Shown piece after piece: positions 43,758-46,963 of a stretch of DNA of 46,963 nt. The stretch is taken from NCBI GenBank assembly GCA_001767495.1, contig MELA01000082.1, positions 1-46,963 of the forward strand. The letters are read 5' to 3'. Numbering within the stretch: position 1 is the stretch's first letter; each line of letters opens with the position of its first letter. The position numbers were made by a program, and so were the translations under genes. This stretch comes from Acidobacteria bacterium RIFCSPLOWO2_12_FULL_65_11 (lineage in GTDB: Bacteria; Acidobacteriota; Vicinamibacteria; Vicinamibacterales; CAVVIG01). Below the pieces are notes generated by a model that worked only from the letters and a program-made list of their open reading frames with translations, made no database searches and was not told the origin of the DNA.

Positions 43758-45218
43758 ATGGCTCCGCGCGTCCGCTTCGCTCCCTCTCCCACCGGCTACC
43801 TCCACGTCGGCGGCGCCAGAACGGCGCTCTTCAACTGGCTCTTCGCCCGCCGCCATGGCGGCGTGTTCGTCCTGCGCATTGAGGACACCGACGTCGAACG
43901 CTCGTCGGCCGAAATGGTGGACGGCATTCTCGCCGGCCTGCGCTGGCTGGGCTTGAACTGGGACGAAGGACCCCAGGTCGGCGGACCGTTTGGGCCCTAC
44001 TTCCAGTCCGAGCGGCTCGATCGCCATCAGGCGATGGCCGCCAGGCTCGTCGCTGGCGGCAGCGCCTACTACTGCTACTGCACGCCGGACGAGTTGAAGG
44101 GCAAGCGCGAGGCGGCCGGCGGCACATCGATCTACGACCGCACCTGCCTCCGGCTCACGACCGACGAGATGGCCCGCCGCGAGCGCGACCGGATGCCCAG
44201 GGCGATGCGGTTCAAGGTCCCGTCTGGTGAGGTTCGCTTCGACGATCTCGTCCACGGCTCGATCGAGGTCGATGCCGTCACCATCGAAGACTTCGTCATC
44301 GTCCGCTCCGACGGCCATCCCACCTATCAGCTCTCCGTTGTGTCAGACGACGTCGAGATGAAGATCACGCATGTGGTGAGGGGAGACGATCACATTTCCA
44401 ATACGCCGAAGCAGATACTGCTGTATCGGGCGCTTGGCGCGCCGATTCCCCAGTTCGCGCACGTGCCGCTGATTCTCGGTCCGGACAAGAAGCGATTGAG
44501 CAAGCGCCACGGCGCGACCTCTGTGATGGAGTACGCGCAGCAGGGGTATCTCCCCGAAGCGATGGTGAACTTCCTTGCGCTCCTCGGATGGTCGCCAGGC
44601 AGCGGCAATCAGGAGCTCTTCACACGGGACGAGCTGGCAAGGGTGTTCGCGCTCGAAGGCATCAGCGGAGGAAACGCCGTCTTTGGTCCCGAGAAGCTCG
44701 ACTGGTTCAACCAGCAGTACATCATGCGCCTTGCGTCCGACGAGCTCGCGAAGCGGATACAGCCGTCATTTGAAGCGGCCGGTCTGTGGGATGTGTCGCT
44801 GCTGGGAGATCGCCGCCGGTGGTTCTTCTCCGTGCTCGACTTGCTCAAGCCGCGGGCGAAGCGAATCGGCGACTTTGCCGCGCAGGCCCGGTACTTCCTG
44901 ACCGATCGGATCGAGTACGACCATGCTGCGGTCGAGAAGCACGTCCGCGCGGCGGGGATGGGCCAGCATCTGCTGGCGCTTGATGCCGCGTTTGGGGAGC
45001 TGTCGGCGTTTGACGCCGCGTCACTCGAGGCGGCGCTCCGCGCGGTGGCCGACCTTCGAGGCATCAAGGCGGCGGCGCTCATTCACGCGACGCGAGTTGC
45101 GGTGACCGGCACGTCGGTCAGCCCGGGTCTATTCGAGGTGCTCGTCCTTGTCGGCTGCGATCGGGTGCACGCGCGGCTGCAGGCTGCGCTGCGGCTGATT
45201 GCGCCAGCGCCGGGCTAA
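43758..45218 (+). CDS. gltX: Glutamyl-tRNA synthetase
   Basis: This class I synthetase (486 aa) charges tRNA-Glu, or tRNA-Gln in organisms using the amidotransferase route. The N-terminal catalytic core begins RVRFAPSPTGYLHVGGARTA, with HVGG as the HIGH motif. The second signature KKRLSKRHGA matches KMSKS. The C-terminal anticodon-binding domain is full length. The ATG at 43758 is chosen because MAPRVRFAPSPTG is the usual start, and the frame remains open upstream only by chance. A tRNA-Gln gene follows. Confidence 0.97.
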   Translation: MAPRVRFAPSPTGYLHVGGARTALFNWLFARRHGGVFVLRIEDTDVERSSAEMVDGILAGLRWLGLNWDEGPQVGGPFGPYFQSERLDRHQAMAARLVAGGSAYYCYCTPDELKGKREAAGGTSIYDRTCLRLTTDEMARRERDRMPRAMRFKVPSGEVRFDDLVHGSIEVDAVTIEDFVIVRSDGHPTYQLSVVSDDVEMKITHVVRGDDHISNTPKQILLYRALGAPIPQFAHVPLILGPDKKRLSKRHGATSVMEYAQQGYLPEAMVNFLALLGWSPGSGNQELFTRDELARVFALEGISGGNAVFGPEKLDWFNQQYIMRLASDELAKRIQPSFEAAGLWDVSLLGDRRRWFFSVLDLLKPRAKRIGDFAAQARYFLTDRIEYDHAAVEKHVRAAGMGQHLLALDAAFGELSAFDAASLEAALRAVADLRGIKAAALIHATRVAVTGTSVSPGLFEVLVLVGCDRVHARLQAALRLIAPAPG

Positions 45219-45262: not shown

Positions 45263-45336
45263 TGGGAGGTCGTCCAACGGTAGGACACATGGCTCTGGAC
45301 CATGGTATCGGGGTTCAAATCCCTGCCTCCCAGCCA
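45263..45336 (+). tRNA. tRNA-Gln (anticodon CUG), integration site
   Basis: The acceptor TGGGAGG (45263-45269) pairs with CCTCCCA (45326-45332), followed by G and encoded CCA. The anticodon arm CATGG-CTCTGGA-CCATG gives CTG. The T-arm contains GGTTCAAATCC. An integrase gene ends 11 bp beyond the 3' end, which marks this as an element attachment site. Confidence 0.96.
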
Positions 45337-45347
45337 CTTATCTCGTT

Positions 45348-46469
45348 CTAGGACTTCAACTTCCTATCGCGGCCTTCAGCCGTCTCCAGTATTTCTCCAC
45401 GTCCGGATTCAGCCACTCTCGATTCCAACAACCGAACCGTGTCGATCAACGCGGCCGGACTCAGGTGCGAATACCGCTGGGTCATCGTCAGATCCTGGTG
45501 GCCCACCAGTTCCTGCACCGACCGCATCGCCGCCCCTCGCATCACCAGGTGCGAGCAGAACGTGTGACGCAGGATGTGAACGCCGGTCGGCACATTCGCC
45601 CGGTGCGCCGCGTAGCGAACGCGCGACCAGGCGCCTTGCCGAGTGATCGGCTTCCCATCGTCCAGGCACAGCACGCGTGGGCTGCGAAGGTGACGCTGCT
45701 TGCGAAGAGCCGTCGCTACCCGCTCGGTCATCGCTACGAACCGACCTCTGCCGCTCTTCGGGCTCGTCAGCTGGCCGCGCCAATCCGAGTGGCGAATGCT
45801 GATCTGTCGCCGTTCGAGGTCGATGTCGGCCCATTCCAACGCGACGATTTCGCCGGCTCGCATCCCGCCTTCACCGCCCAGCAAGGCGATCACGTAGGTC
45901 CGCCAATCGATCGAACGCGCCCCTTCGAGTAGACGTTCGTACGCCTCGAAATCGTGGAACGCCGCATCACGACGCGCAACGGGCAGCAAGCGGATCGAAC
46001 ACGGAAGTTGGTCGATCATCTCCCACTCCACTGCGGTCTTCAGCATGACATTCAACACAGTCAGCACGTTGTTCACGGTCTTGGCCGCTCTGTCCTTCAA
46101 GTGCAGCTTCAATCGCTGCACCTGTGCGTTTGAGATCGCGTCGAGCTGCTGCTCCCCAAGCACCGGGATCAGGTGGATCCGGAGGATTGTTTCCTTCGAC
46201 GCGACGCCACTCGGCTTGTGCCTGTCCGCTTTGGCGTAACCCTCCAGGAACTTCGGCGCGAACTCCTCGAGTGTTGGCACCTCCTTCTTTGCAGGCTCGG
46301 GACCGTGTTGCAGCAGATGCCGCTCGCGGTCCTGGCCCCAGCGCAACGCGCCGGATTTTGATTCAACGGGCGCCTTGTACCGTTCCCGGTGACGCGTCCC
46401 GTCGGGGAGGCGGAACTGAATGTCCACCTCCCACCCTCCGTTTCGATACGGTCGTAATTTCACGCTCAT
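45348..46469 (-). CDS. Tyrosine recombinase (phage-type integrase)
   Basis: The 373-aa protein has an N-terminal arm-binding region (VKLRPYRNGGWEVDIQFRLP, residues 3-22), a core-binding domain (about 65-160) and the catalytic domain. The catalytic set is complete: R204 (GMRAGEIV), K238 (SPKSGRGR), H298 and R301 (HILRHTF), H324 (LVGHQD) and the nucleophile Y333 (QRYSHL). It should cut and rejoin the attachment sites. It ends 11 bp from tRNA-Gln, and an excisionase-like gene lies just upstream (7 bp gap). Confidence 0.95.
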   Translation of the reverse strand: MSVKLRPYRNGGWEVDIQFRLPDGTRHRERYKAPVESKSGALRWGQDRERHLLQHGPEPAKKEVPTLEEFAPKFLEGYAKADRHKPSGVASKETILRIHLIPVLGEQQLDAISNAQVQRLKLHLKDRAAKTVNNVLTVLNVMLKTAVEWEMIDQLPCSIRLLPVARRDAAFHDFEAYERLLEGARSIDWRTYVIALLGGEGGMRAGEIVALEWADIDLERRQISIRHSDWRGQLTSPKSGRGRFVAMTERVATALRKQRHLRSPRVLCLDDGKPITRQGAWSRVRYAAHRANVPTGVHILRHTFCSHLVMRGAAMRSVQELVGHQDLTMTQRYSHLSPAALIDTVRLLESRVAESGRGEILETAEGRDRKLKS

Positions 46470-46475
46470 CGCCGA

Positions 46476-46673
46476 TCACTCCTTCGGCGATGGCGCGCGC
46501 TTCTGGTCCAGCCAGTGTAGCAAATCGTCCGCGCGCAGGAGGACTCGCCGGCGAACACGAATCACGCCCGGGAGTTGCCGGCGCTCGATCATCGCGTAGA
46601 TGGCTCGTCGGGTGGTGCGCAGAAGCTCGGCCGCTTCGTCCACGGTGAGCAGAACGGGTAGCGTGCCTCTCAT
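46476..46673 (-). CDS. Excisionase-like helix-turn-helix DNA-binding protein
   Basis: The 65-aa protein has the MerR/AlpA-type winged-helix pattern: LLTVDEAAELLRTTRRAIYA, then MIERRQLPGVIRVRRRVLLRADDLLHWL. These small proteins commonly direct the integrase toward excision or repress element genes. The gene is 6 bp upstream of the integrase gene in the same direction, so the two are probably co-transcribed. Its ATG overlaps the start of a divergent reading frame by two bases. Confidence 0.9.
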   Translation of the reverse strand: MRGTLPVLLTVDEAAELLRTTRRAIYAMIERRQLPGVIRVRRRVLLRADDLLHWLDQKRAPSPKE

Positions 46674-46963
46674 GACACGACCTCCGTCCCGCCTCCACGC
46701 TGTCCTTCCCGAACGTCCGAGGCGATATCACAAGAGGTCCAATCTTCTTGGGCGGACGCTAGAAGCGAACGACATTGTTGTCGAGGTGTCTGGTGGGAGC
46801 AAAGGTCAACCGGTCGGGCGCTGCCTGTTCGTTTCGCGCGAGCTGCTGAGGGCCTTTGCCGACGAACCAGTAATGTGTGCGAGCTTCTGCAAACGAGTGC
46901 GTCCAAACCCGGATGCATACGCTCCTGAGCTCTTGTACTTGTCGCTGTTGGAGGCGTACGACT
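46672..46963 (+). CDS. Partial unrecognised gene at the window end
   Basis: From the ATG at 46672 the frame is open for 97 codons to the end of the window, reading TRPPSRLHAVLPERPRRY..., then VVEVSGGSKGQPVGRCLFVS and ELLRAFADEPVMCAS. I recognise no family. The sequence is richer in A and T than the flanking chromosome, and the codons do not favour G/C in the third position, consistent with element cargo of foreign origin. The start could be further inside, as this ATG overlaps the excisionase start. Confidence 0.45.
   Translation, partial: MTRPPSRLHAVLPERPRRYHKRSNLLGRTLEANDIVVEVSGGSKGQPVGRCLFVSRELLRAFADEPVMCASFCKRVRPNPDAYAPELLYLSLLEAYD

Follow-up and report, generated by a model that had tools for sequence, protein, structure and literature searches.

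The left end of a probable tRNA-Gln-specific integrative island with type I restriction-modification cargo in an acidobacterial genome

Islands that stand in tandem at an RNA gene have been described in Dehalococcoides, where the ssrA islands are bounded by 20-bp repeats of the 3' end of that gene, with a conserved motif beside the repeats and an integration module adjoining attL (PMC3146451). Some of these islands are without integration genes and were considered possibly cis-mobilizable (PMC3146451). In E. coli, anti-phage genes occur on mobile elements integrated at tRNA genes (PMC10121019), and restriction-modification (R-M) systems are carried by ICEs, prophages and other mobile elements (PMC4176335). 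Such carriage of R-M systems is reportedly also the subject of Furuta et al. 2010.

The locus considered here lies at the right end of the window, by which we mean the whole stretch of DNA analysed. The window is the entire contig C82 (46,963 bases) of a genome in 153 contigs (3.55 Mb, 98% complete by estimate), so that the sequence stops where the contig ends. With a probability of about 0.82, we conclude that its last 1.6 kb are the left part of an integrative island that is specific for tRNA-Gln and carries type I R-M genes.

The tRNA-Gln(CUG) junction and the genes beside it

The gene order at the right end of the window is gltX, tRNA-Gln(CUG), integrase (minus strand), HTH gene (minus strand) and a divergent frame (plus strand). 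The features are as follows.

43758..45218, plus strand: gltX, glutamyl-tRNA synthetase, on the chromosome side of the junction (tRNA-synt_1c, E 8.1e-98, and Anticodon_2; start codon approximate)
45263..45336, plus strand: tRNA-Gln(CUG), the target gene (ARAGORN)
45320..45336, plus strand: presumed attL core TCCCTGCCTCCCAGCCA, the tRNA 3' end, which recurs at the right ends of sister islands
45337..45350, plus strand: left-end motif CTTATCTCGTTCTA, directly 3' of the tRNA and overlapping the integrase stop codon
45348..46469, minus strand: tyrosine integrase of the Gln clade, 373 aa (Phage_integrase, E 1.4e-27, with an N-terminal SAM-like domain)
46476..46673, minus strand: excisionase-like HTH protein, 65 aa (TIGR01764, 45.5 bits, cut-off 28.8; HTH_17)
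46720..46963, plus strand: piece of hsdS, which encodes the specificity subunit of a type I R-M system (PADLOC Specificity_I, E 5.9e-16)

The integrase and the HTH gene had both been pointed out in the earlier note on this DNA, as a complete tyrosine integrase 11 bp from the tRNA 3' end and an excisionase-like gene, and both descriptions hold. The gap between tRNA and integrase is indeed 11 bp (45337-45347), and R204, K238, H298/R301, H324 and Y333, the residues of the tyrosine recombinase motif, are all present (the motif strings were located in the protein). The HTH protein scores above the curated cut-off of TIGR01764, and copies 47-95% identical to it occur in relatives of the same order. 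An assignment to the methylation-associated defence system MADS, through its mad1 HTH protein, was rejected at 28.8 bits against a curated cut-off of 80.

The form NYTANNNNRTTCTA of the left motif adjoins the RNA end in 8 of the 19 rows compared, namely those of the window, three other Gln, two Ser, one Asp and one tmRNA site. It is absent or poorer in the other 11, among them that of G040, the closest relative.

The same note had also marked a divergent, AT-richer frame. The frame is there and holds the hsdS fragment; its AT-richness is weak, since its GC content is 59.0%, while 290-bp windows average 64.0% (sd 4.3) and 9% of them are as low. The hsdS homology begins at 46720 and covers positions 264-342 of a 440-position model (in another model it starts at 51 of 405), meaning that the 5' part is missing, while the 3' side is cut by the contig end. 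The divergent frame had no match in Pfam and NCBIfam, and the hsdS piece none among solved structures. A search of 198 genomes, the window's own included, returned one match to the piece besides itself, antisense to an HTH gene. The remainder of hsdS is absent from the assembly, and no other hsdS of its type was found in the genome. We examined C41 and C4, each with a type I locus, as candidates for a cargo contig in the same genome and dismissed both, neither locus being a fitting hsdS cut at a contig end.

Within 46671-46720, the start codon of the HTH gene overlaps a possible ATG of the divergent frame, an arrangement that leaves no space for a promoter of the hsdS fragment.

Because the hsdS fragment is without its 5' part, decay may have reached the cargo, at its edge if not further in. 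The whole locus might even be a relic, in which an old pair of integrase and HTH genes stayed behind at the tRNA after the rest was lost or rearranged, with the hsdS piece as a leftover; no matching right end was found in the assembly, and in several relatives the integrases are split or contain stops, both of which would suit such a history. However, the integrase is full length with its catalytic-type residues in place, the HTH gene is intact, and an integrase 86% identical at the same tRNA in another family suggests movement. We therefore consider a relic unlikely.

A second possibility is that the assembly joined the end of an element to an unrelated hsdS. At the DNA level, similarity to the nearest HTH homologue, that of G089, ends 20 bp before the start codon, and the hsdS homology sets in 27 bp further on, as would suit a false join. 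But in none of the nine relatives compared does the similarity continue further upstream, as expected if variable cargo starts there, and type I R-M genes are found in the majority of the long sister islands (see below). A chimera is thus very improbable, and we retain the reading of an island whose cargo begins with hsdS.

Integrase relatives and the cargo of their islands

The integrase family was found in 28 of 100 related genomes (E <= 1e-40, the window's own genome included). From 38 places in that search and five loci in a named-genome collection, 29 loci (28 distinct) were analysed by script; they were chosen by length of contig, and the counts that follow are therefore possibly biased. 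An RNA gene lay in the stretch at 25 of the 28 distinct loci and was convergent with the integrase at all 25, the targets being tmRNA (8), tRNA-Gln (5), Ser (5), Asp (3), Gly (2), SeC (1) and Lys (1). The nearest integrase piece was at most 200 bp from the RNA gene in 24 of these and 690 bp away in one.

In a tree of 22 integrases, all six tRNA-Gln members, including that of the window, formed one clade with a support of 100/100 (three of these six rows are partial). Closest to the window integrase was that of G040 (86%), which belongs to another family of the same order and uses the same tRNA, and G019, from the window's own family, was placed in the other half of the clade. This is a pattern that horizontal transfer would be expected to leave, and we infer that the window's own copy is mobile too.

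The integrase matches PHROG integrase families, and temperate phages typically have a tyrosine integrase directed at a tRNA gene together with a small HTH excisionase; both would suit a prophage or phage satellite with its left end here. Close relatives are nonetheless missing where such an origin would place them. Among phage records, 1087 matched the integrase, none at 60% or more, with 26-28% among the matches listed (8); viral contigs gave matches at two loci, of 25-26% only; and the 797 plasmid records that matched were all below 60%. Furthermore, a Pfam scan of ten ORFs of the island in G069 detected no relaxase, conjugation or phage structural family. A phage origin is accordingly very unlikely. 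In the named-genome collection, the three closest relatives were all in Acidobacteria MAGs; of the two distant ones, a Polyangia MAG had one (42%) and Streptococcus mitis the other (25%).

The result of the ORF scan also suggests that cell-to-cell transfer of the island probably depends on other elements.

That the locus is the left end of an island, as the earlier note had proposed, is supported by the intact integrase, by the sequence adjoining the tRNA and by the same-clade sister in G069, which is bounded by a repeat of the tRNA 3' end. This tRNA-Gln island measures 17.5 kb from tRNA core to direct repeat and carries HsdM, HsdM, HsdS, HsdR, a DRT4/6-like reverse transcriptase and a YaaC-like protein. 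The note's guess that the cargo would include defence genes has likewise gained support: the first cargo gene in the window is the hsdS fragment, and of the eight sisters whose integrase is intact and whose cargo can be read over 9.9 kb or more, six have type I R-M genes.

HsdM, HsdS and HsdR are all present in five of these sisters, in G069, G040, G023, G041 and G079. The genes of G040 run R, S, M, M, and compared with those of G069 its HsdR is 89% and its HsdM 72-77% identical, its HsdS only 36%; this element appears to extend over two contigs, the cargo contig ending before the integrase contig starts. The order is S, M, R in G023 (14.8 kb, tRNA-Ser), M, S, R in G041 (20.9 kb, tmRNA) and again M, S, R in G079 (tmRNA), where HipA, TIR and a PDC-S21 candidate are added. 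The sixth sister, G036 (tRNA-Gly), has HsdR at its contig end. The HsdM proteins of the sisters had different best PADLOC models.

The searches for HsdM and HsdR used a panel made of the sisters' own proteins and two loci of the window's genome, on ORFs that a simple script, not a gene caller, had extracted from the relatives. Neither protein was found in G084 and G068, which have an intact integrase and long cargo (in G084 with an AlbA-type protein), in three sisters whose cargo is 3.6-4.8 kb long, or in three more whose integrases are truncated or contain stops. Ten chromosome-side flanks (70 kb), taken as a control, gave no HsdM or HsdR either. The remaining stretches that had been fetched, 49 in number (701 kb, with overlaps among some), gave two matches, both on one tRNA-Gln contig of G060; ten of the 49 had been chosen for bearing or adjoining a right arm.

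The position of hsdS in these islands bears on a further alternative, in which the integrase would invert an adjacent hsdS of a phase-variable type I system, the inversion breaking the contig. In the window, 250 bp separate the integrase from the hsdS piece and the contig ends inside hsdS, and in G023 the distance from hsdS to integrase is about 320 bp. In G069, however, hsdS is about 9 kb away; 25 of 28 loci have the integrase beside an RNA gene, with varying cargo; and the window's genome has no other hsdS of that type. We regard a shuffling enzyme as extremely improbable.

Four elements of this integrase family (L105:15721-16740, L019:1046-2161, L068:12836-14020 and L067:7096-7992) share a protein that is about 300-390 residues long, with 42-69% identity among its copies. 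It had no match in PHROGs (three copies tested), Pfam (two) or PADLOC (one), and it is perhaps a core gene of some of these elements.

Right ends and integrase-less segments

Of the 100 genomes, the window's own included, 73 contain the tRNA-Gln core of 16 bases, and the same pattern written backward, as a control, matches in one. In 19 genomes (20 contigs), the core is found at least twice within 35 kb of the same contig, and all copies on a contig then share one strand. The stretches fetched contain 64 such sites, 29 of them at recognised tRNA genes.

An attR-type repeat of the RNA 3' end was found in the sisters G069, G023, G041 and G068. At the right end of the G069 island about 150 bp are conserved, which recur in G040, G058, G050, G023, G068, G013, G019 and others, and this right arm is conserved whichever RNA end comes after it. 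Its motif, CAGAAGTCG(C/T)GCGCCATCA, was seen in 16 distinct copies (five of them placed by eye), each before an RNA T-loop and 3' end, at a distance of 26-28 bases in 15 and of 24 in one. Several copies had been found with a query that contained the core, and six (L216, L220, L222, L234, L240 and L242) with just the motif. Among 162 genomes of the order, 20 contain the exact motif, with 23 copies in all, of which 15 were inspected; exact matches alone were counted, the 19-mer at up to two mismatches not being clean (the control matched in many genomes). A clustering of right-hand flanks, which put 33 of 35 sites in one group, was left unused.

On four contigs (G058:C10, G058:C12, G050:C1 and G031:C99; L197-L200, L203) such arms are fused to RNA 3' ends. 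Neither HsdM, HsdR nor a relative of the integrase was detected in the 5.6-25.6 kb upstream of these arms, suggesting that R-M cargo tracks the integrase-bearing islands and not every arm-bearing segment; this weighs slightly against our reading of the window's island. In G050, two right arms lie 8.4 kb apart.

Repeats in tandem were seen at tRNA-Gln and at tmRNA genes. At G069:C35 88018-118985 (L104, L105), a tRNA-Gln gene and four same-strand repeats are spread over 31 kb, and between two of the tRNA-Gln repeats (90554-88033) is a 2.5-kb segment with an AbiEi/AbiEii pair as its sole recognised cargo. No integrase was seen in this segment, yet its right end matches in type the one belonging to the integrase-bearing island. 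In the one-contig genome G041 (C1 2275956-2313969; L165, L159, L069), five repeats (23-30 bases) of the tmRNA 3' end extend over 38 kb, and three of the right ends there are 84-96% alike across about 200 bases. Segments of 2-3 kb from tRNA-Gln to repeat occur at G023:C64 5266-8047 (L123) and G090:C150 7231-9335 (L116); their ends are alike on the left and on the right, no integrase was seen in them, and they carry a subtilase or a DUF7685/7686/7713 protein.

In the genome to which the window belongs, a 166-bp right-end query matched only the tRNA itself, and the right-arm 19-mer with up to three mismatches gave four matches against five for the control. Two isolated tRNA-Gln 3' ends with no tRNA were found in this genome (G000), one at C73:4141-4156 (L008), exact over 17 nt, and one at C102:4130-4145 (L009), with a change. 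Neither served as the missing right end, since against the arms of G069 and G040 they scored 14-18, within the range of the shuffles (300 per flank comparison). With the core left out, the C73 flank matches sites in G090, G023, G027 and G012 (scores 69-101, shuffle maxima 23-29), and that of C102 matches weakly (best score 38). Both are probably ends of another element type; they suggest that the tRNA-Gln site is used by more than one type of element. C73 has a ParDE toxin-antitoxin pair on the presumed element side.

Proposed function and relation to known systems

If the island works as its parts suggest, the integrase would recombine the tRNA-Gln(CUG) 3' end borne by the element (the attP core) with the chromosomal tRNA gene, which would keep the tRNA whole and place a repeat, at least 16 bases long, at the other end of the island. 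The reverse reaction is probably under the control of the excisionase-like HTH protein, and the arms flanking the core may bind both Int and the HTH protein and set the direction. The R-M cargo would defend the host as well as the island and may stabilise the latter. For the window's copy, recombination activity, the control of direction and the rest of the cargo are predictions from the comparisons above; that cargo is most likely a defence module including a type I R-M system, of which the assembly holds only the hsdS fragment.

A wider model, possible in our view though tentative, is that of a modular element family spread through the order, in which the right arm and the integrase/excisionase pair would be kept and the attachment core swapped among tRNAs and tmRNA. 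Integrase-less segments with the same arm, for which we draw on the AbiE pair between tRNA-Gln repeats in G069 and on the arm-bearing contigs of G058 and G050, would accumulate in tandem and be mobilised in trans, making up an array of defence cassettes at an RNA gene. Swapped cores beside a constant arm would let the change of integrase target be studied. The right arm followed by an RNA 3' end offers a sequence signature for delimiting such islands in draft genomes, and one integrase lineage of a little-studied order is now linked to repeated carriage of type I R-M and other anti-phage genes.

Among the matches listed from open-literature titles and abstracts, there was no account of this integrase or island family. 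The islands form a new family of a known kind, islands at RNA genes, defence genes at tRNA sites and R-M systems on mobile elements all having been described.

Like the Dehalococcoides ssrA islands (PMC3146451), those of the present family stand in tandem at RNA genes, are bounded by repeats of the 3' end of the RNA, have a conserved flank and can have neighbours that lack an integrase. The Dehalococcoides islands, however, have an integrase of the serine recombinase family, tmRNA as target and reductive dehalogenase cargo (PMC3146451), whereas ours have a tyrosine integrase, several RNA genes as targets and recurrent type I R-M. The carriage of anti-phage genes on a tRNA-integrated element is shared with the E. 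coli defence elements; the latter are P4-like satellites and IMEs (PMC10121019), while no close relative of the present integrase was found among phage, viral-contig or plasmid records. Compared with R-M systems on mobile elements in general (PMC4176335), what distinguishes the present case is that one integrase family repeatedly carries type I systems.
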